Positions 3,288 through 38,645 of a stretch of 64,000 bases of DNA are shown here, one piece after another. Under the pieces are notes generated by a model. That model made no database searches and was not told where the DNA came from. It saw nothing but the letters and a program-made list of their open reading frames with translations. Position 1 is the stretch's first letter. Each line of letters starts with the position of its first letter. The DNA is from an uncultured Lachnospiraceae bacterium (GTDB lineage: Bacteria; Bacillota; Clostridia; Lachnospirales; Lachnospiraceae). The DNA lies in contig CAMUMG010000001.1 in the NCBI GenBank assembly GCA_947089905.1, forward strand, positions 186,001-250,000, in the 5' to 3' direction. Position numbers and translations under genes: made by a program.

Positions 3288-5237
3288 ATGACAAAACATA
3301 AATCAATTCACCGGAAAACCCTCTTTTTCATTGTCCTTATGATTATTGCTGCAATTTTAGGCTTAATTGTACGTTTGATGTATCTTATGATTTTTCATTC
3401 TGAACAATATGCAAAGCGAGCCAAAGATCTACATGAACGAGAGAGAAGTATTAAAGCAGAGCGTGGAATGATTTATGATCGAACAGGCTTAGTAATTGCA
3501 GATAATAAGCCTGTTTGTACAATTTCTGTAATACATAACCAAATTAAAGATAAAGAACTTGTGATTTCTTCGTTAAGTGAAATTCTTCAATTAAGTGAAG
3601 AAACAGTAAGAAAACGAGTAGAGAAGTATTCTTCTATTGAAAGAATTAAGTCTAATGTAGATAAAGAAACAGCAGATCAGATCCGAAATCTTGGACTGGA
3701 CGGGGTAATGGTAGATGAAGATTATAAACGTTATTATCCATATGACGATTTAGCTTCTAGAGTCTTAGGGTTTACAGGAAGCGATAATCAGGGAATTATT
3801 GGACTTGAAGTAGAATATGACAGTTATTTAAGTGGAATTAATGGAAAAATTTTAACACTTGCTACAGCACACGGAATTGAAATTGATAATGCAGCAGAAA
3901 ACAGAGTAGAACCTATACCAGGAAATAGTCTTTATACTTCCTTAGATGTTACAATGCAGATGTATGCAGAGCAAGCTGCAAAAAAAGTAATGGAAAAAAA
4001 ACAGGCACAACGGGTTAGTATCATTCTTATGAATCCCCAAAATGGTGAAATCTATGCAATGGTCAATGTTCCAGAATTCAATCTCAATTCTCCCTATGAA
4101 TTTAATGAGGTACTTCGTGAAAAATATGATAATATCACATTAACTTCAGAAGAAAAAAATACAATTTTAAATACAATGTGGAGAAATCCATGTATCAGTG
4201 ACACCTATGAACCTGGATCTACATTTAAAGTAGTTACTGCAGCAGCGGCACTAGAAGAAAAGGTAGTTTCGCTAACAGACCGATTTTTCTGTCCGGGGTA
4301 TAAAAAGGTAGAAGATCGTAATATTCGCTGTCATAAAGCGGGAGGTCATGGAAGTGAAAGTTTTGTAGATGGTATTAAAAATTCGTGCAATCCAGTTTTT
4401 ATGGAAGTTGGAGCAAGAGTTGGGGCAGAACGGATGTATGATTATTATAAGACATTTGGGCTTAGAGAAAAGACAGGAGTGGATCTTCCAGGAGAAGCCA
4501 ATTCAATTATGCACAAATTGGAAAATGTTGAGGCAGTAGAATTAGCAACAATGTCTTTTGGGCAGTCATTTCAAATCACACCACTTCAGCTTTTACGCAC
4601 AGCAAGTGCTATTATTAATGGTGGAACATTAGTTACCCCTCATTTTGGTGTTGAGATTAAAAATGCAGAAGGTACAACAATAAAAACGTTAACTTATGAA
4701 ACAAAATCGCAGGCAGTATCAAAGGAAACCTCCGAAACAATGAAGATGTTATTAGAGGCGGTTGTCGCTGATGGAAGTGGAAAAAAAGCATATCTGCCGG
4801 GATTTCGGATAGGTGGAAAAACTGCAACTTCCGAAAAACTTCCAAGACGTTCCGGAAAATACATTTCTTCGTTTCTTGGATTTGCACCAGCACAAGATCC
4901 AAAAGTAATTGCACTTTTGATGATTGATGAACCTGTTGGAATTTATTATGGAGGAACAGTTGCAGCTCCAGTAGTTGCAGAAGTACTTGAAAATGTTCTC
5001 CCTTACCTTGGAATTGAACCAGCCTATTCAGAACAGGAGATTCTTACTTATGAAATTGGAAGTTTTGAAATTCCTGATTTTATAGGTAAAAGTAAAAGAG
5101 AAGCAGAAGAAATCATATCCGCTTATTATTTTGACGAAATTTATTATATTGGAGAAGGGGATACGGTGATGGAACAATTTCCATTATCAGGAGAGATGGT
5201 AAACAAAAACAGTGACTTGATTTTGTATCTTGAATAG
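3288..5237 (+). CDS. Class B penicillin-binding protein with C-terminal PASTA domain (SpoVD-like), KTA variant
   Basis: A 649-residue paralogue of the preceding PBP. It has an N-terminal membrane anchor, a PBP-dimer domain and a transpeptidase domain with STFK near residue 311 and SCN near 366. It ends in one PASTA domain (about 590-649; IPDFIGKSKREAEEII). A terminal PASTA is typical of SpoVD/PbpB and suggests muropeptide or lipid II interaction. The third active-site motif reads KTA (residues 511-513, codons 4818-4826) where KTG is expected; the flanking GG and TSEK are normal, so it looks like a real substitution. Its SD is weak. MurD follows. Confidence 0.92.
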   Translation: MTKHKSIHRKTLFFIVLMIIAAILGLIVRLMYLMIFHSEQYAKRAKDLHERERSIKAERGMIYDRTGLVIADNKPVCTISVIHNQIKDKELVISSLSEILQLSEETVRKRVEKYSSIERIKSNVDKETADQIRNLGLDGVMVDEDYKRYYPYDDLASRVLGFTGSDNQGIIGLEVEYDSYLSGINGKILTLATAHGIEIDNAAENRVEPIPGNSLYTSLDVTMQMYAEQAAKKVMEKKQAQRVSIILMNPQNGEIYAMVNVPEFNLNSPYEFNEVLREKYDNITLTSEEKNTILNTMWRNPCISDTYEPGSTFKVVTAAAALEEKVVSLTDRFFCPGYKKVEDRNIRCHKAGGHGSESFVDGIKNSCNPVFMEVGARVGAERMYDYYKTFGLREKTGVDLPGEANSIMHKLENVEAVELATMSFGQSFQITPLQLLRTASAIINGGTLVTPHFGVEIKNAEGTTIKTLTYETKSQAVSKETSETMKMLLEAVVADGSGKKAYLPGFRIGGKTATSEKLPRRSGKYISSFLGFAPAQDPKVIALLMIDEPVGIYYGGTVAAPVVAEVLENVLPYLGIEPAYSEQEILTYEIGSFEIPDFIGKSKREAEEIISAYYFDEIYYIGEGDTVMEQFPLSGEMVNKNSDLILYLE

Positions 5238-23352: not shown

Positions 23353-25419
23353 GTGTTTCAAATAGAAGGTGATATTTTACTTTTTATGATTATATTACTG
23401 CCAGCGATAGCAGCATTCATTTGTTTTTATATTGGTCGTTTTCAAACTACGATCAGAGATTATTGTGTTTGGGGTACTGTGATAATAGAATTTTTACTCT
23501 CTTTAATTGCAATAATTTTTTGGAGTACAAAGGGAAATCTTTATTTTACAATTCCAAACTTTGGTGTCAGTGGATTATATCTGGAAATGGATGGATTTCG
23601 TGCTCTTTATTGTACGATTGCTTCTTTTATGTGGATGTGTGCAGGAATCTTTTCTAAAGAATATTTGAACCATCATCACAAAAAAAATCGATATTATTTA
23701 TTTTTATTACTTACTCTTTTTGCAACACAAGGAGTTTTTTTGTCAACAGATTTAATGACTACTTTTGTCTTTTTTGAAATTATGTCCTTTACTTCATATG
23801 TTTGGGTAGTTCAAGAGGAAACAAAAGAAGCTCTAAAGGCAGGAGAAACTTATTTAGCGGTTGCCATAATCAGTGGACTGGTATTGTTAATGGGATTATT
23901 TTTACTATATGCCCAGACAGGTACACTAAAGATGGATAAGTTATTGTCTGCTTGTCGTATGGCAAAAGAACCAAGAATTATCTATATTGCAAGTCTTTGT
24001 CTTCTATTTGGTTTTGGGGCAAAGGCAGGAATGTTTCCACTTCATATTTGGCTACCTAAAGCACATCCTGTTGCACCCGCACCTGCATCTGCTTTACTTT
24101 CAGGAATTTTAACTAAAGCAGGAGTATTTGGAATTTTAGTGACTGGAAGTAATATTTTACTACATGATTCTCTTTGGGGAAAAGTTGTTTTACTACTTGG
24201 AACGATAACAATGGTACTTGGGGCAATTTATGCCCTATGTTCTATTAATTTAAAAAGAACACTTGCCTGTTCTTCTATGTCACAAATTGGTTTTATTTTA
24301 GTAGGCGCAGGAATTTCTAGTATTCTCGGAGAAGAAAATCAATTAGCAGTACGCGGAACAATACTTCATATGGTAAATCATTCTTTATTAAAATTAGTAC
24401 TTTTTCTTGCAGCAGGTGTTATTTATATGAATTTGCATGAATTAGACTTAAATAAAATAAGAGGTTTTGGAAAAGATAAACCACTTTTAAAAATAGCCTT
24501 TTTGTTTGGAGCTTTAGGAATTAGTGGTGTTCCACTTTTTAATGGATATATTAGTAAATCTTTGTTACATGAGGCAATTATAGAAATAATTTCTCTTGCT
24601 AAAACAGATATAGCAATATTTCGTGTTGTTGAAGTATTGTTTTTAATTTCCGGTGGATTGACAACAGCTTATATGACAAAGCTTTATATAGCAATTTTTG
24701 TAGAAGGTAATATGGACAAAAAGAAAAAACATTCTACTCACTATATGAATTTGGCATCTACATTGGTACTTCTTATTCCAGCAAGTCTTTTATTCCTGTT
24801 TGGAGCATTTCCATCTATTTTTATGGATCGCATTGCAGATATGGGACAGAATTTTTTAAAGGTACAAGGAAAAATAAGAGTTTCGTATTTTAGTTTTGAA
24901 AACTTAAAAGGAGCGATCATTTCACTTGGAATTGGCGTACTTGTCTATTTATTTATAGTAAGAAAGATCTTAATGCGTACAGATAAAAATGGGGTACATT
25001 ATTATATTAGCCCTGTTTGTAGATTGGATTTAGAAAATGGAATATATCGTCCTATCATAGAATTTTTTCTTCCAACAGCAGCAGGAGCAGTATGCAGAGG
25101 ATTAGATCGAATTCCAGATAGAATTATTTTATTTTTAAGAAAAACGATTTATAGACATTCAAGACCTAAAAGGAAGCTGAGTGCTAGAAAAGAAGCATAT
25201 ATTATTGGTATGATTTTAAATGAATGTGCACATATATTAAATAAAACTCTTTTGCGTAAACATCCAATAAAAAGAAATTCCTTTGTTGGACTTGTAGAAG
25301 CAGGGGAAAAAACAGCAGGACAGACAGGCAGATTAATTATTAAAAGTGTTTCCTTTGGACTTATGCTGTTTTCGATTGGACTTATTATTACTTTATTTTA
25401 TTTACTGTTTTTTGTATGA
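23353..25419 (+). CDS. Mrp-type antiporter subunit D-like, copy 4, with long C-terminal extension
   Basis: A 688-residue NuoL/M/N paralogue. The antiporter core (GAKAGMFPLHIWLPKAHPVAPAPASALLSGILTKAG; LKRTLACSSMSQIGFILVG; HMVNHSLLKLVLF) covers about residues 1-500. An extra 170 residues follow, with a membrane helix, a basic cytoplasmic-looking part (RKTIYRHSRPKRKLSARK) and a final helix. Such extensions occur in HyfB/MbhH-like and NuoL-type subunits. The start is uncertain: GTG 23353 has a very close SD, and ATG 23386 (MIILLPAIAAF) would give a more typical N-terminus. It is the last operon gene. Confidence 0.88.
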   Translation: MFQIEGDILLFMIILLPAIAAFICFYIGRFQTTIRDYCVWGTVIIEFLLSLIAIIFWSTKGNLYFTIPNFGVSGLYLEMDGFRALYCTIASFMWMCAGIFSKEYLNHHHKKNRYYLFLLLTLFATQGVFLSTDLMTTFVFFEIMSFTSYVWVVQEETKEALKAGETYLAVAIISGLVLLMGLFLLYAQTGTLKMDKLLSACRMAKEPRIIYIASLCLLFGFGAKAGMFPLHIWLPKAHPVAPAPASALLSGILTKAGVFGILVTGSNILLHDSLWGKVVLLLGTITMVLGAIYALCSINLKRTLACSSMSQIGFILVGAGISSILGEENQLAVRGTILHMVNHSLLKLVLFLAAGVIYMNLHELDLNKIRGFGKDKPLLKIAFLFGALGISGVPLFNGYISKSLLHEAIIEIISLAKTDIAIFRVVEVLFLISGGLTTAYMTKLYIAIFVEGNMDKKKKHSTHYMNLASTLVLLIPASLLFLFGAFPSIFMDRIADMGQNFLKVQGKIRVSYFSFENLKGAIISLGIGVLVYLFIVRKILMRTDKNGVHYYISPVCRLDLENGIYRPIIEFFLPTAAGAVCRGLDRIPDRIILFLRKTIYRHSRPKRKLSARKEAYIIGMILNECAHILNKTLLRKHPIKRNSFVGLVEAGEKTAGQTGRLIIKSVSFGLMLFSIGLIITLFYLLFFV

Positions 25420-36375: not shown

Positions 36376-36387
36376 GAAAATAAGTAT

Positions 36388-36538
36388 AAAAGCGGTAACA
36401 GCAATGCTTTTAGCATATTGCAATTGATTAGGGATCAATTTAAACCGCTTTGTGGGTGAAGAGACCTTTGTTTTGAAAAAAAGAAAGATGCAGCAAAATC
36501 CTATTTATCCTACAAAAAGTAAGATATCCTCTTCACCC
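36388..36538 (+). ncRNA. Structured RNA 1: three-way-junction domain plus hairpin/CAGCAA domain
   Basis: Two domains are visible. The first (36389-36451) is closed by AAAGCGGT/ACCGCTTT and holds two hairpins (GCAAT...ATTGC with a bulge, and AATTGAT/ATCAATT), with ACAGCAA at 36398-36404. The second (36454-36538) is closed by a perfect 10-bp stem, GGGTGAAGAG/CTCTTCACCC, and holds a hairpin capped by GAAA, then GCAGCAA (36490-36496), then an imperfect hairpin (ATCCTAC/GTAAGAT). No tRNA D or T arm is present. The same plan recurs at 36674-36823, so this is a repeated RNA design, not a chance fold. A promoter-like TATAAT sits just upstream. The RNA is predicted only; function unknown. Confidence 0.65.
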
Positions 36539-36554
36539 TGCTTAAATAAAAAAC

Positions 36555-36670
36555 GGGGATATAGCTCAGATGGTAGAGCACGAAAAAAAGAGATTTGTAA
36601 AAATCTCTTACAGCAATTTTCTAAAGACCTGATAAGTCCGTTGTCGCTGGTTCGATTCCAGCTATCCCCA
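36555..36670 (+). tRNA. Interrupted tRNA-Ile(GAU)-like RNA, 43-nt insert at 28/29
   Basis: The acceptor GGGGATA/TATCCCC is 7 of 7 paired. The D arm (GCTC, AGATGGTA, GAGC) and T arm (GCTGG, TTCGATT, CCAGC) are perfect, and position 73 is A with no encoded CCA. After CG (36581-36582, positions 27-28) comes a 43-nt insert (36583-36625), then GAC CTGATAA GTCCG TTGTC. Removing the insert restores a perfect CGGAC/GTCCG anticodon stem, the loop CTGATAA with anticodon GAT and a total of exactly 73 nt. The insert is an 8-bp hairpin (AGAGATTT/AAATCTCT, loop GTAA region) followed by ACAGCAA (36610-36616). Whether the insert is removed, or the RNA works unspliced, is unknown. It lies 2 nt from the next RNA. 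Confidence 0.75.
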
Positions 36671-36673
36671 ATA

Positions 36674-36823
36674 AAAGCGGTAACAGCAATTTTATTTCGA
36701 TTGATCTGTCACATCAAACCCGATATATGCCGCTTTGTGGGTGAGGAGGAAAGAGAGTTGCAAAATTCTCTTACAGTAAACAACTTCTCGGTTTAAAACG
36801 GTTCGAATCCGCTCTCCTCACCC
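36674..36823 (+). ncRNA. Structured RNA 3: junction domain plus D-armless tRNA-like domain
   Basis: The first domain (36674-36736) is closed by AAAGCGG/CCGCTTT, has a TTGAT/ATCAA hairpin and ACAGCAA at 36683-36689, matching the first domain of the RNA at 36388. The second (36739-36823) is closed by a perfect 10-bp stem, GGGTGAGGAG/CTCCTCACCC, and contains an 8-bp hairpin (AGAGAGTT/AATTCTCT with one G-U, GCAA tetraloop), ACAGTAA (36773-36779) and a T-arm-like element with loop TTCGAAT (CGG/CCG). There is no D arm. A T-run follows the closing stem, so it may also act as a terminator. It looks like a hybrid between RNA 1 and the tRNA-like RNAs. Confidence 0.65.
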
Positions 36824-36833
36824 TTTTTTATTT

Positions 36834-36951
36834 AGACGAGTGGAGGAAATGGAAGACTCAGAATTTAAAAAAGGTGGGTAGATATCCACGAACAGCAAAT
36901 TTTTAAGGAATTCCGCTAATAGCATTGTCGGTTCGAATCCGACCTCGTCTA
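36834..36951 (+). tRNA. Interrupted tRNA-Leu(UAA)-like RNA, 36-nt insert at 28/29
   Basis: The acceptor AGACGAG/CTCGTCT is 7 of 7 paired. The D arm has the class II leucine pattern TG-GAG...CTC. A 13-nt variable arm (36914-36926) contains GCT...AGC, the T arm is perfect (GTCGG, TTCGAAT, CCGAC) and position 73 is A. After GA (36861-36862) a 36-nt insert (36863-36898) intervenes, then ATT TTTAAGG AATTC. Without the insert the anticodon stem is a perfect GAATT/AATTC, the loop is TTTAAGG with anticodon TAA, and the body is 82 nt. The insert holds a hairpin (GTGGGT/ATCCAC) and ends exactly with ACAGCAA. ATT occurs at both borders, so the exact junction is ambiguous by up to 3 nt. Confidence 0.75.
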
Positions 36952-36962
36952 TTTTTTATTTA

Positions 36963-37068
36963 GGGGACATAGCTCAATGGATAGAGCATGAGATTAGTAA
37001 AATCTCTTACAGCAATTTTCTTTGGCAAGATTCGCCCTAGGTTGCCGGTTCGAATCCGGCTGTCTCCA
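36963..37068 (+). ncRNA. Interrupted tRNA-like RNA (Arg-type body), 33-nt insert at 28/29
   Basis: The acceptor GGGGACA/TGTCTCC pairs 7 of 7 (one G-U). The D arm (GCTC, AATGGATA, GAGC) is of the type usual in tRNA-Arg, the variable loop is AGGTT, the T arm is perfect (GCCGG, TTCGAAT, CCGGC) and position 73 is A. After TG (36989-36990) a 33-nt insert (36991-37023) with an AGATT/AATCT hairpin and ACAGCAA (37009-37015) precedes GGC AAGATTC GCCCT. Removal gives exactly 73 nt and four of five anticodon-stem pairs. However, the loop AAGATTC lacks the invariant U33, so it is unlikely to decode normally. It ends 29 bp before the DUF2828 start codon. Confidence 0.7.
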
Positions 37069-37097: not shown

Positions 37098-38645
37098 ATG
37101 AATTTTATGGATAGTTTAAAAAAGACTTTAGGAGATAAATTTAATTCTTCTGTTACAGAGAATGGAGCACTTGGATATCGTACAACAGGAAAGAAACTAT
37201 TAGATTTAAATTTTGCAGTTTCCTCTTTACGAAATCTTCCTGAACAAGAAGTAGTTGTACGTTTTGCAGAAGCTTATTATGAAAATCCACTGCTCGCCAT
37301 TAAATGGCTTTTTTTTGCATCTGATATCAGAGAAGGATTAGGAGAAAGAAGATTATTTCGGATCGGCTTAAAATTTTTAGTTACTCGTTCTCCTAAAACA
37401 GTAAAAAAACTACTTGTTTTGATTCCAGAGTATAACAGATGGGATAATCTGCTTTGTCTGTTAGATACTCCTATTGTAGATGATGTTGTAACATTACTTC
37501 AAGATCAGCTAACAAAAGATATGGAACAAGCACAACAAAATCAGCCGATTTCTCTTTGTGCAAAATGGATGCCTTCTGCAAATGCCTCTTCAGCAGAGAC
37601 AAAACGGCTTGCTAAAATTTTAATTGAAAAATTAAAAATTACAGAACGTCAATATCGAAAAATGCTCTCCAAGTTAAGAGAACATCTTCATTTAGTTGAA
37701 ACATCAATGAGTAAAAAAGAATGGTCGCAGATTGTTTATGAAGCTGTTCCGGCGAGAGCTAACTTAATTTATAATAAGGCATTTTTAAGAAATGATGAAG
37801 AAAGACGACGTAGTTATCTGGAAAGTTTAGAAAAAGGGGAAACTAAAATCAACGCAGGAGTATTATATCCACACGATATTGTACATAAATATCTGATAGG
37901 TACTTATTATCAGTTTCGCGTTGCGCCTTTTGATTCTGGATTAGAAGAATTATGGAAAGCTTTACCTGAACCAGTAAAAGAGGCAAAGAATACGCTTTGT
38001 GTAGCAGATGGTTCTGGAAGTATGATATCTCCTGTAGGAAAAACACAGATTCGCTGTTTGGATATTGCCAATGCTTTAGCAATTTATTTTTCTGAACACT
38101 GCTCGGGACAATTTAAAGACAAATATATTACTTTTTCTATGAGTCCACAGTTTGTTGATTTTAGTAAGGCACAATCTCTGAAAGAAAAAATAGAAATTGC
38201 TCTGCATTATAATGAAGTAGCAAATACCAATATTGAAGCAGTATTTGATTTAATTTTAGAAACTGCAATTTCCAATCATATGTCAGCCGAAGATATGCCG
38301 CAGACGATTTTGATTTTATCCGATATGGAATTTGATACAGCAACCCGTATCAGAGATGTATCACATCATTTTCAAAGTCCTTCCGTAGCATTATTTGAAG
38401 AACTGCAAAAACGTTACCTAGAAGCAGGGTATTCTCTTCCTAGACTTGTCTTTTGGAATCTTTGCAGCCGGACACAGACGATACCTCTTACACAAAATAA
38501 CTGTGGTGTAGCATTAGTCAGCGGATTTTCTGTACAGACTTTAAAAATGGTATGCAGTGGAGAGTTAGATCCTTACCGTTGTCTGTTAGAACAATTAAAT
38601 ACAAAACGATATCAGCCAGTAGAAGAGGCCTTTTTCAACAATTAA
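37098..38645 (+). CDS. DUF2828 family protein, TROVE/Ro60-like with vWA domain
   Basis: A 515-residue protein matching the DUF2828 family as I know it. The N-terminal helical-repeat region (about 1-280) begins VTENGALGYRTTGKKLLDLNFA and includes DIREGLGERRLFRIGLKFL and LIPEYNRWDNLLCLLDT. The C-terminal part (about 295-505) is a von Willebrand A fold with MIDAS motif VADGSGSM (DxSxS intact) and YITFSMSPQFVDFS. This layout resembles Ro60/TROVE proteins, which bind Y RNAs and misfolded RNAs; RNA binding is inferred. ATG 37098 has AAAGGAG 13 nt upstream, rather far. It directly follows the array of tRNA-like RNAs and is probably co-transcribed with it. Confidence 0.85.
   Translation: MNFMDSLKKTLGDKFNSSVTENGALGYRTTGKKLLDLNFAVSSLRNLPEQEVVVRFAEAYYENPLLAIKWLFFASDIREGLGERRLFRIGLKFLVTRSPKTVKKLLVLIPEYNRWDNLLCLLDTPIVDDVVTLLQDQLTKDMEQAQQNQPISLCAKWMPSANASSAETKRLAKILIEKLKITERQYRKMLSKLREHLHLVETSMSKKEWSQIVYEAVPARANLIYNKAFLRNDEERRRSYLESLEKGETKINAGVLYPHDIVHKYLIGTYYQFRVAPFDSGLEELWKALPEPVKEAKNTLCVADGSGSMISPVGKTQIRCLDIANALAIYFSEHCSGQFKDKYITFSMSPQFVDFSKAQSLKEKIEIALHYNEVANTNIEAVFDLILETAISNHMSAEDMPQTILILSDMEFDTATRIRDVSHHFQSPSVALFEELQKRYLEAGYSLPRLVFWNLCSRTQTIPLTQNNCGVALVSGFSVQTLKMVCSGELDPYRCLLEQLNTKRYQPVEEAFFNN

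Follow-up and report, generated by a model that had tools for sequence, protein, structure and literature searches.

Insert-bearing tRNA-like RNAs beside a gene for a predicted Ro60-fold protein in a Lachnospiraceae bacterium, read as probable unpermuted Y RNAs

The RNA cluster and the adjoining gene

A stretch of 64,000 nucleotides (nt) from an uncultured Lachnospiraceae bacterium (NCBI GenBank assembly GCA_947089905.1, contig CAMUMG010000001.1, positions 186,001 to 250,000; hereafter the window, numbered from its first letter) carries three transfer RNA (tRNA)-like RNAs which are interrupted by short inserts and followed by a gene of the DUF2828 family. All features of this cluster and the gene lie on its + strand. 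A preliminary description, made from the letters alone, had placed the RNAs at 36555..36670, 36834..36951 and 36963..37068 and had proposed that they either follow a processing route not yet described or form an RNA family in which the tRNA body serves as scaffold. These coordinates and the lengths of 116, 118 and 106 nt were reproduced on the sequence, as were inserts of 43, 36 and 33 nt and remaining bodies of 73, 82 and 73 nt, and the insertion point is indeed common to all three, between positions 28 and 29 of the anticodon stem.

The acceptor, D and T arms had been described as complete, in agreement with the Rfam tRNA model, which is covered over its whole length by each RNA with 49.0, 29.4 and 50.3 bits respectively (cut-off 29 bits). 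RNA 2 is of class II, with a long variable arm and a Leu-like body. Every insert consists of a hairpin, two nucleotides and the motif ACAGCAA: a hairpin and TT precede the motif in RNA 1 (insert 36583..36625, motif 36610-36616) and in RNA 3 (36991..37023, motif 37009-37015), while in RNA 2 (36863..36898, motif 36892-36898) these are the hairpin GTGG/CCAC and GA. The parts thus follow the native tRNA order of acceptor, D arm, closed module, T arm and acceptor. Removal of the inserts restores the stems CGGAC/GTCCG and GAATT/AATTC and, in the third RNA, four of five pairs, as had been stated. In the case of RNA 1, which scores 119.3 bits with our covariance model R1 and has a fold z of -4.25, the proposed Ile loop CTGATAA (anticodon GAU) is supported by alignment as a canonical loop on an anticodon hairpin, and the minimum-energy fold given by RNAfold contains no such hairpin. 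For RNA 2 (R1 70.3 bits, z -2.31) the proposed Leu(UAA) loop has a competing reading, RNAfold favouring a single continuous stem that consumes the letters of the loop and leaves the D arm unformed. RNA 3 (R1 85.1 bits, z -2.60) shows an anticodon hairpin GGC-AAGATTC-GCC whose non-canonical loop lacks U33. All three RNAs were training rows of R1. ARAGORN predicts no tRNA anywhere in the window, the three RNAs included. An encoded CCA is absent from them and likewise from the genuine tRNA genes of the same genome (32 listed), so that its absence is uninformative.

The gene, absent from the preliminary description, begins 30 nt past RNA 3 (37098..38645) and codes for a protein of 515 amino acids with the Pfam domains DUF2828 and DUF7788. 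Its AlphaFold2 model (pLDDT, the predicted local distance difference test, of 89.3) has as best fold matches in the PDB exclusively Ro60/TROVE structures and displays a helical ring plus a vWA domain as in 1yvp and 2nvo; hence a Ro60 fold is predicted. The protein also matches PHROG 850, named 'RNA-binding protein'. Pfam TROVE (PF05731) has no match in this protein or in the window's own genome (G000), a sequence search of solved structures gave 0 matches whereas the fold search found Ro60, and PADLOC has no model for the protein. In the open-licence literature DUF2828 is mentioned in four papers, each on plants, judged by the titles. Another member, the DUF2828 protein P0126 of 575 amino acids, also has PF01912 among its precomputed Pfam domains.

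Upstream of the three RNAs and between them lie four more copies of the module (36388-36823), two of them variants, which had not been described; seven copies of one module are thus found between 36388 and 37068. A scan for stem and motif predicted two Y-type RNAs without a tRNA body, at 36388..36453 (stem AAAAGCGGT / ACCGCTTTGT around ACAGCAA at 36398-36404) and at 36673..36738 (stem AAAAGCGGT / GCCGCTTTGT around ACAGCAA at 36683-36689). In both, the motif stands directly 3' of the 5' strand of a long tRNA-free stem (AAAAGCGGT / GCTTTGT). RNAfold yields the stem of the first (z -2.97 for 36385-36456), and the second folds weakly when taken alone (z -0.73). The first variant lies in a likely additional RNA domain (36454..36538; fold z -4.60), read on the sequence as closed by GGGTGAAGAG / CTCTTCACCC and holding a closed module CTTTGT..AAAG with GCAGCAA (36490-36496). 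The second belongs to a degenerate tRNA-like RNA without D arm (36739..36823; fold z -3.64), which displays a long closing stem, a hairpin with ACAGTAA (36773-36779) and a T arm CGG-TTCGAAT-CCG and reaches only 19.8 bits with R1. A short open reading frame at 36452-36796 was, in our judgement, rejected as a gene because it overlaps these RNAs.

Homologous loci and the two topologies

Relatives of the gene turned up in 8 genome contigs and 10 viral contigs. They were also present in three genome samples: in 22 of 200 genomes from the same family, in 24 of 246 sampled at the level of the order and in 12 of 245 at that of the class; each sample includes the window's own genome, and some matches are weak or fragmentary. 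Among 80 loci (L031-L110), 78 have a tblastn match and were oriented by the gene; once identical gene starts had been dropped, 69 were left, a few of which are two pieces of one broken gene.

A structural scan recovered 23 distinct insert-bearing, tRNA-bodied RNAs of 105-126 nt from 10 loci, the window included. Two aligned rows carry variants of the motif (L037 581-698 and L058 1262-1374). Left out of the alignment were a 96-nt RNA with the motif (L056 835-930), three matches of 143-160 nt with the motif that were judged to span open modules (L035 4631-4773, L061 1060-1214, L096 1135-1294), low-scoring long matches without it (L104 598-704, window 24168-24333) and identical phage copies. Scanned in the same way on the + strand, 30 ordinary tRNA loci of the window's genome, some of which overlap so that genes are counted more than once, yielded 40 tRNAs, every one of normal length.

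The 23 RNAs align nearly without gaps across hairpin and motif, and the letters of the insert rank among the most conserved of the whole RNA. Covariance folding of homologues, a check proposed in the preliminary description, upheld the structure: 86.4% of cells are paired as against 59.4% in shuffled alignments, none of 500 shuffles reaching that value, and two-sided changes are seen in 25 of the 26 pairs. That chance could not easily produce such RNAs, as had been argued, is borne out by this alignment of 10 loci. Pairing is kept at 98.7% in the acceptor, 100% in the T arm and 83.1% in the D arm, and at 70.5%, 71.7% and 71.7% in the lower anticodon stem, the upper anticodon stem and the insert hairpin respectively. 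Of 70 gene-bearing sources, 14 contain RNAs that R1 scores above 62 bits, 26 in total; four of these RNAs are new (L040, L042, L065, L077) and the remaining 22 are training rows. One further training row (L101 2130-2242) scores just 49.6 bits. Native forms are also present in three IMG/VR viral contigs (L101, L104, L105). In the last of these, a tRNA-like gene of 63 nt (L105:2644-2706) with acceptor, D and T arms and almost no anticodon arm directly follows a native-form RNA.

The module also occurs in an open form, defined here as a stem with 7 or more pairs immediately 5' of AC[ACT]GCAA together with its partner strand. At least one open module is found in 58 of the 69 loci, and 141 in total compared to a mean of 6.0 in shuffled flanks; all 141 lie on the gene's strand, against 6 on the other, with 122 upstream and 19 downstream of the gene. 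Column counts give the consensus AAAGRYRC-NN-ACAGCAA ... GYRYCTTGT. A strict pattern search over the 200 genomes was noisy, with 30 genomes matching (9 of 22 with DUF2828 and 21 of 178 without) and 8 matching the reversed control, but in 8 of the 9 matching DUF2828 genomes the pattern lies on the gene's strand, up to about 1.6 kilobases (kb) upstream. Two marks of Y RNAs, a place beside the gene of a Ro60-fold protein (the fold being predicted here) and a stem and motif common to the RNAs of one locus, are found, and at the level of sequence the anatomy, conservation and linkage of the RNAs are established. An apparent minimal module was also seen at L056:1213-1242, formed by TTGTGATCC, GCAGCAA and GGATCATGT, with the motif in the loop of the stem and no further domain.

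With its hairpin loop opened, the module of the inserts forms both ends of the tRNA-less Y-type RNAs and of permuted, YrlA-like RNAs beside the same gene family. The order of YrlA in Rfam is Y stem, T arm, closed acceptor, D arm and Y stem, and it is followed by six open modules from four loci plus L062 (L033 twice, L035, L038, L061, L062). Sub-threshold YrlA matches of 35.5-45.7 bits were obtained in L038, L047, L061 and L062; at the gathering threshold the window RNAs do not match YrlA (RF02553) and match tRNA instead. Since the open module occurs in tRNA-less and permuted RNAs, the window RNAs can be described as having the components of YrlA, arranged without the permutation. The permuted form would turn into the native one, and vice versa, by opening of the acceptor loop in the former and of the hairpin loop in the latter, and we infer that the two are circular isomers of one RNA. 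The best evidence is local and comes from L056, whose open modules bear the unusual tail CATGT (3 of 141 open modules, confined to this locus), while both of its aligned closed modules read CATGT-TTGTG or CATGT-TTCGTG. In viral L101:2825-2943, a Y stem AAAGACAC/GTGTCTTG apparently surrounds a complete tRNA in native order, which would be a third way of arranging the parts.

Reading frames that resemble the RNA ligase RtcB and carry its motifs occur at most 720 nt away from the gene in 19 of the 69 loci (14 downstream, 5 upstream), two of them confirmed by Pfam. Four proteins encoded upstream were tested and have WYL or WCX domains, one just below the cut-off.

Interpretation and competing explanations

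We consider it likely that the three RNAs are noncoding RNAs of the Y RNA type which function in unspliced form as partner RNAs of the predicted Ro60-fold protein from the neighbouring gene; RNAs and protein together would most likely constitute an unpermuted variant of the known Y RNA/Ro60 system. The insert, hairpin plus ACAGCAA, would be the handle gripped by the Ro60-like protein and the tRNA body an effector end mimicking tRNA. As for maturation, the open acceptor end would let RNase P and RNase Z trim the native RNAs and CCA be added, as in tRNAs, whereas the permuted form with its closed acceptor could undergo neither. The particle may function in repair and turnover of tRNA or structured RNA, with RtcB, which is linked in other loci, or PNPase as possible working partner. 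The scaffold proposal of the preliminary description is thereby supported, the insert being a conserved module common to non-tRNA RNAs beside the predicted Ro60-fold gene. What looked like a puzzling tRNA with a bacterial intron becomes a testable RNA-protein particle, and a specific RNA motif and partner set are assigned to the large DUF2828 family. Because pairing with RtcB recurs, a role in repair of damaged tRNA is directly testable in bacteria and phages.

An unpermuted form of bacterial Y RNA also offers a possible route from tRNAs to Y RNAs. We put forward tentatively, as an idea that may or may not hold, that Y RNAs began as tRNA genes with a Ro60-binding hairpin at position 28/29 and that YrlA is a circularly permuted descendant; both isomers would then persist beside one widespread bacterial and phage family of Ro60-like proteins, the unpermuted ones being maturable, CCA-tagged and perhaps charged while held in the ring.

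Several observations weigh against the Y RNA interpretation. A crude + strand scan 5' of the RNAs found no sigma-70-like site, RtcB does not adjoin the window's gene although it is present in the genome, and 11 of the 69 loci have no open module. Over the 200 genomes, R1 gave 12 matches above 62 bits in 7 genomes, 6 of which carry the gene (Fisher p 6e-6), but the count is inflated and this p value too favourable: training rows came from four of the seven genomes, and the gene is present in two of the other three (G047, G033, G131); only 18 candidates were scored per genome. In G131, which lacks the gene, a native RNA of 84.8 bits was found, and neither DUF2828 nor TROVE has a match there. With regard to the isomers, the closed hairpins of L032 (c), L058 and L059 hold CATGT without an open CATGT module there, the single open module of L032 has another ending, and TTG is found in the closed loop of 9 of 23 RNAs compared to 4.5 in shuffles, 34 of 2000 of which are as high. 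Finally, a canonical anticodon hairpin is retained in at least 8 of the 23 RNAs; a mere scaffold could do without one. The orphan RNA of G131 (L145:1501-1616) adjoins, on our own reading, nicotinamidase-like and ribose-phosphate-pyrophosphokinase-like genes.

The canonical anticodon hairpins were counted for a 5-nt variable loop, a minimum of 3 pairs, a 7-nt loop, U33 and a purine at position 37, taking one best candidate per RNA; the anticodons are GAU (window RNA 1), GGU, GUC, GGU, GGU, GUU, GUU and UGU, and a rough binomial p of 2e-12 is obtained under uniform bases. A canonical loop outside the insert is not kept by all members, as seen for window RNA 3, and in several others the module is apparently placed directly on the anticodon stem according to our alignment.

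Given these hairpins, the possibility is retained that the RNAs are decoys or sensors for anticodon nucleases, that is look-alikes held by the protein and cut instead of tRNAs, then resealed by RtcB. This explanation, compatible with the Y RNA interpretation, is unlikely in our view, though it accounts for the Ile, Thr, Asp and Asn anticodons, for the presence in phages and for the linkage to RtcB, and in PMC7790460 it is considered that the tRNA-like domain of YrlA might competitively inhibit an anticodon nuclease. It has to face the absence of the hairpin in up to 15 of 23 RNAs by the anticodon test, its lack in permuted and tRNA-less members, and the fact that no nuclease is prominent among recurrent neighbours, which were clustered from short flanks only; moreover YrlA was not cut in Salmonella, according to the same paper (PMC7790460).

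It is very improbable that the inserts act as short introns which an undescribed bacterial route excises, perhaps with RtcB as ligase, to leave working tRNAs. Reading without the insert does give Ile(GAU) and Leu(UAA) anticodon arms that look plausible. In at least 8 of the 23 homologues, 3 pairs and a canonical loop of 7 nt stand where they would be expected, and one of these RNAs has the discriminator that suits its anticodon (Asn GUU, G); an RtcB-like gene also lies near the DUF2828 gene in 19 of 69 loci, and RtcB has two gene regions in the window's genome (G000:C4:3831-4973 and C10:8298-9299). Splicing is nevertheless unneeded and disfavoured, because the insert itself is conserved and not the body alone, because in these loci it also supplies both ends of RNAs that are permuted or have no tRNA body, a place where no intron is possible, and because some bodies, such as that of window RNA 3, have a non-canonical anticodon loop or none that could be used. 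The discriminator misfits the anticodon in some members (Asp GUC with A, Asn GUU with A), by the rules of tRNA identity. Furthermore, no tRNA splicing endonuclease is known in bacteria. Like archaeal and eukaryal tRNA introns and bacterial group I tRNA introns, the inserts are extra sequence inside a tRNA gene; unlike these, they lie at position 28/29, measure 33-43 nt and carry a conserved module common to non-tRNA RNAs. Group I introns, which are of 200 nt or more, had already been judged not to fit, and were rejected on size and on the lack of any Rfam match at the gathering threshold. The preliminary description had also suggested looking for uninterrupted genes: tRNA-Leu(UAA) is present in the window's genome, a further point against introns, while no tRNA-Ile(GAU) was found in the assembly with one pattern allowing up to 3 mismatches (G122 has one). 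Ala, Asp and Asn tRNAs are likewise missing among the 30 of 39 tRNA matches read from this genome, so the absence says nothing.

Decaying pseudo-tRNAs with inserted repeats, pseudo-tRNAs being the refuting case named in the preliminary description, are hardly credible and were rejected, for although ARAGORN passes the RNAs over and they encode no CCA, a trait of the genuine genes too, compensatory changes in 25 of 26 pairs, well-kept acceptor, T and D arms, strand bias and placement beside one gene family speak against decay.

Known systems and phage relatives

No earlier report of such RNAs was found in the open-licence literature. The closest known system is YrlA with Rsr/Ro60: YrlA consists of a basal stem tethering Rsr and a tRNA-like domain and forms with PNPase the RYPER machine, according to PMC8394870. 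The window RNAs share with it a putative protein-binding stem joined to a tRNA-like domain, an adjoining Ro60-fold gene and linkage to RtcB, and in the Rfam consensus of YrlA the stem also takes the place of the anticodon arm. They differ in their native order, with ends at the acceptor instead of the Y stem, in that some native members keep an anticodon hairpin, and in the motif ACAGCAA, which is missing from the YrlA consensus. In Salmonella, rsr, the Y RNAs and rtcBA stand together in an RNA repair operon (rsr-yrlBA-rtcBA; PMC7790460), likewise combining a Ro60-fold protein, tRNA-mimic RNA and RtcB. Unlike this operon, our loci encode upstream, at the place of RtcR in Salmonella, proteins with WYL or WCX domains, as far as the four tested show, and no RtcB is encoded beside the window's gene.

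By tblastn, 666 of 50,697 phage records have a DUF2828 homologue. Among 60 of which the names were listed, 22 are hypothetical, 19 RNA-binding, 8 vWFA-type, 3 Ro-like, 3 DUF2828 and 5 unannotated; that of mycobacteriophage Clautastrophe is annotated 'Ro-like RNA binding protein'. Here three modules lie downstream of the gene, the middle one holding, on our own reading, T arm, acceptor hairpin and D arm. Listeria phage LP-048 displays three modules directly 5' of the gene (L186:2620-2890) and an annotated RtcB-like gene 1.3 kb downstream. These Ro-like systems share the protein family and the module with the window; unlike the window, the five named phage loci gave at best 47.0 bits with the native-topology model, the level of ordinary tRNAs.

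According to PMC12282133, the protein CKA15_055 resembles Rsr in HHpred and was found in purified particles, and its gene lies no more than 2 kb downstream of three unannotated regions that are highly transcribed, for which the authors propose Y RNAs among other explanations, citing mycobacteriophage Y RNAs. Judging by phage kinship, size and neighbours, CKA15_055 probably corresponds to the LP-048 gene, and the three LP-048 modules could be those three transcribed regions (PMC12282133). A mycobacteriophage protein resembling RO60 (PMC12363180) and TROVE in some jumbo phages (PMC7824862) are mentioned in two further papers. Finally, downstream of the DUF2828 gene of L037, a match resembling the hepatitis delta virus ribozyme was seen at 4869-4942, with 41.4 bits and thus below the cut-off of 50.
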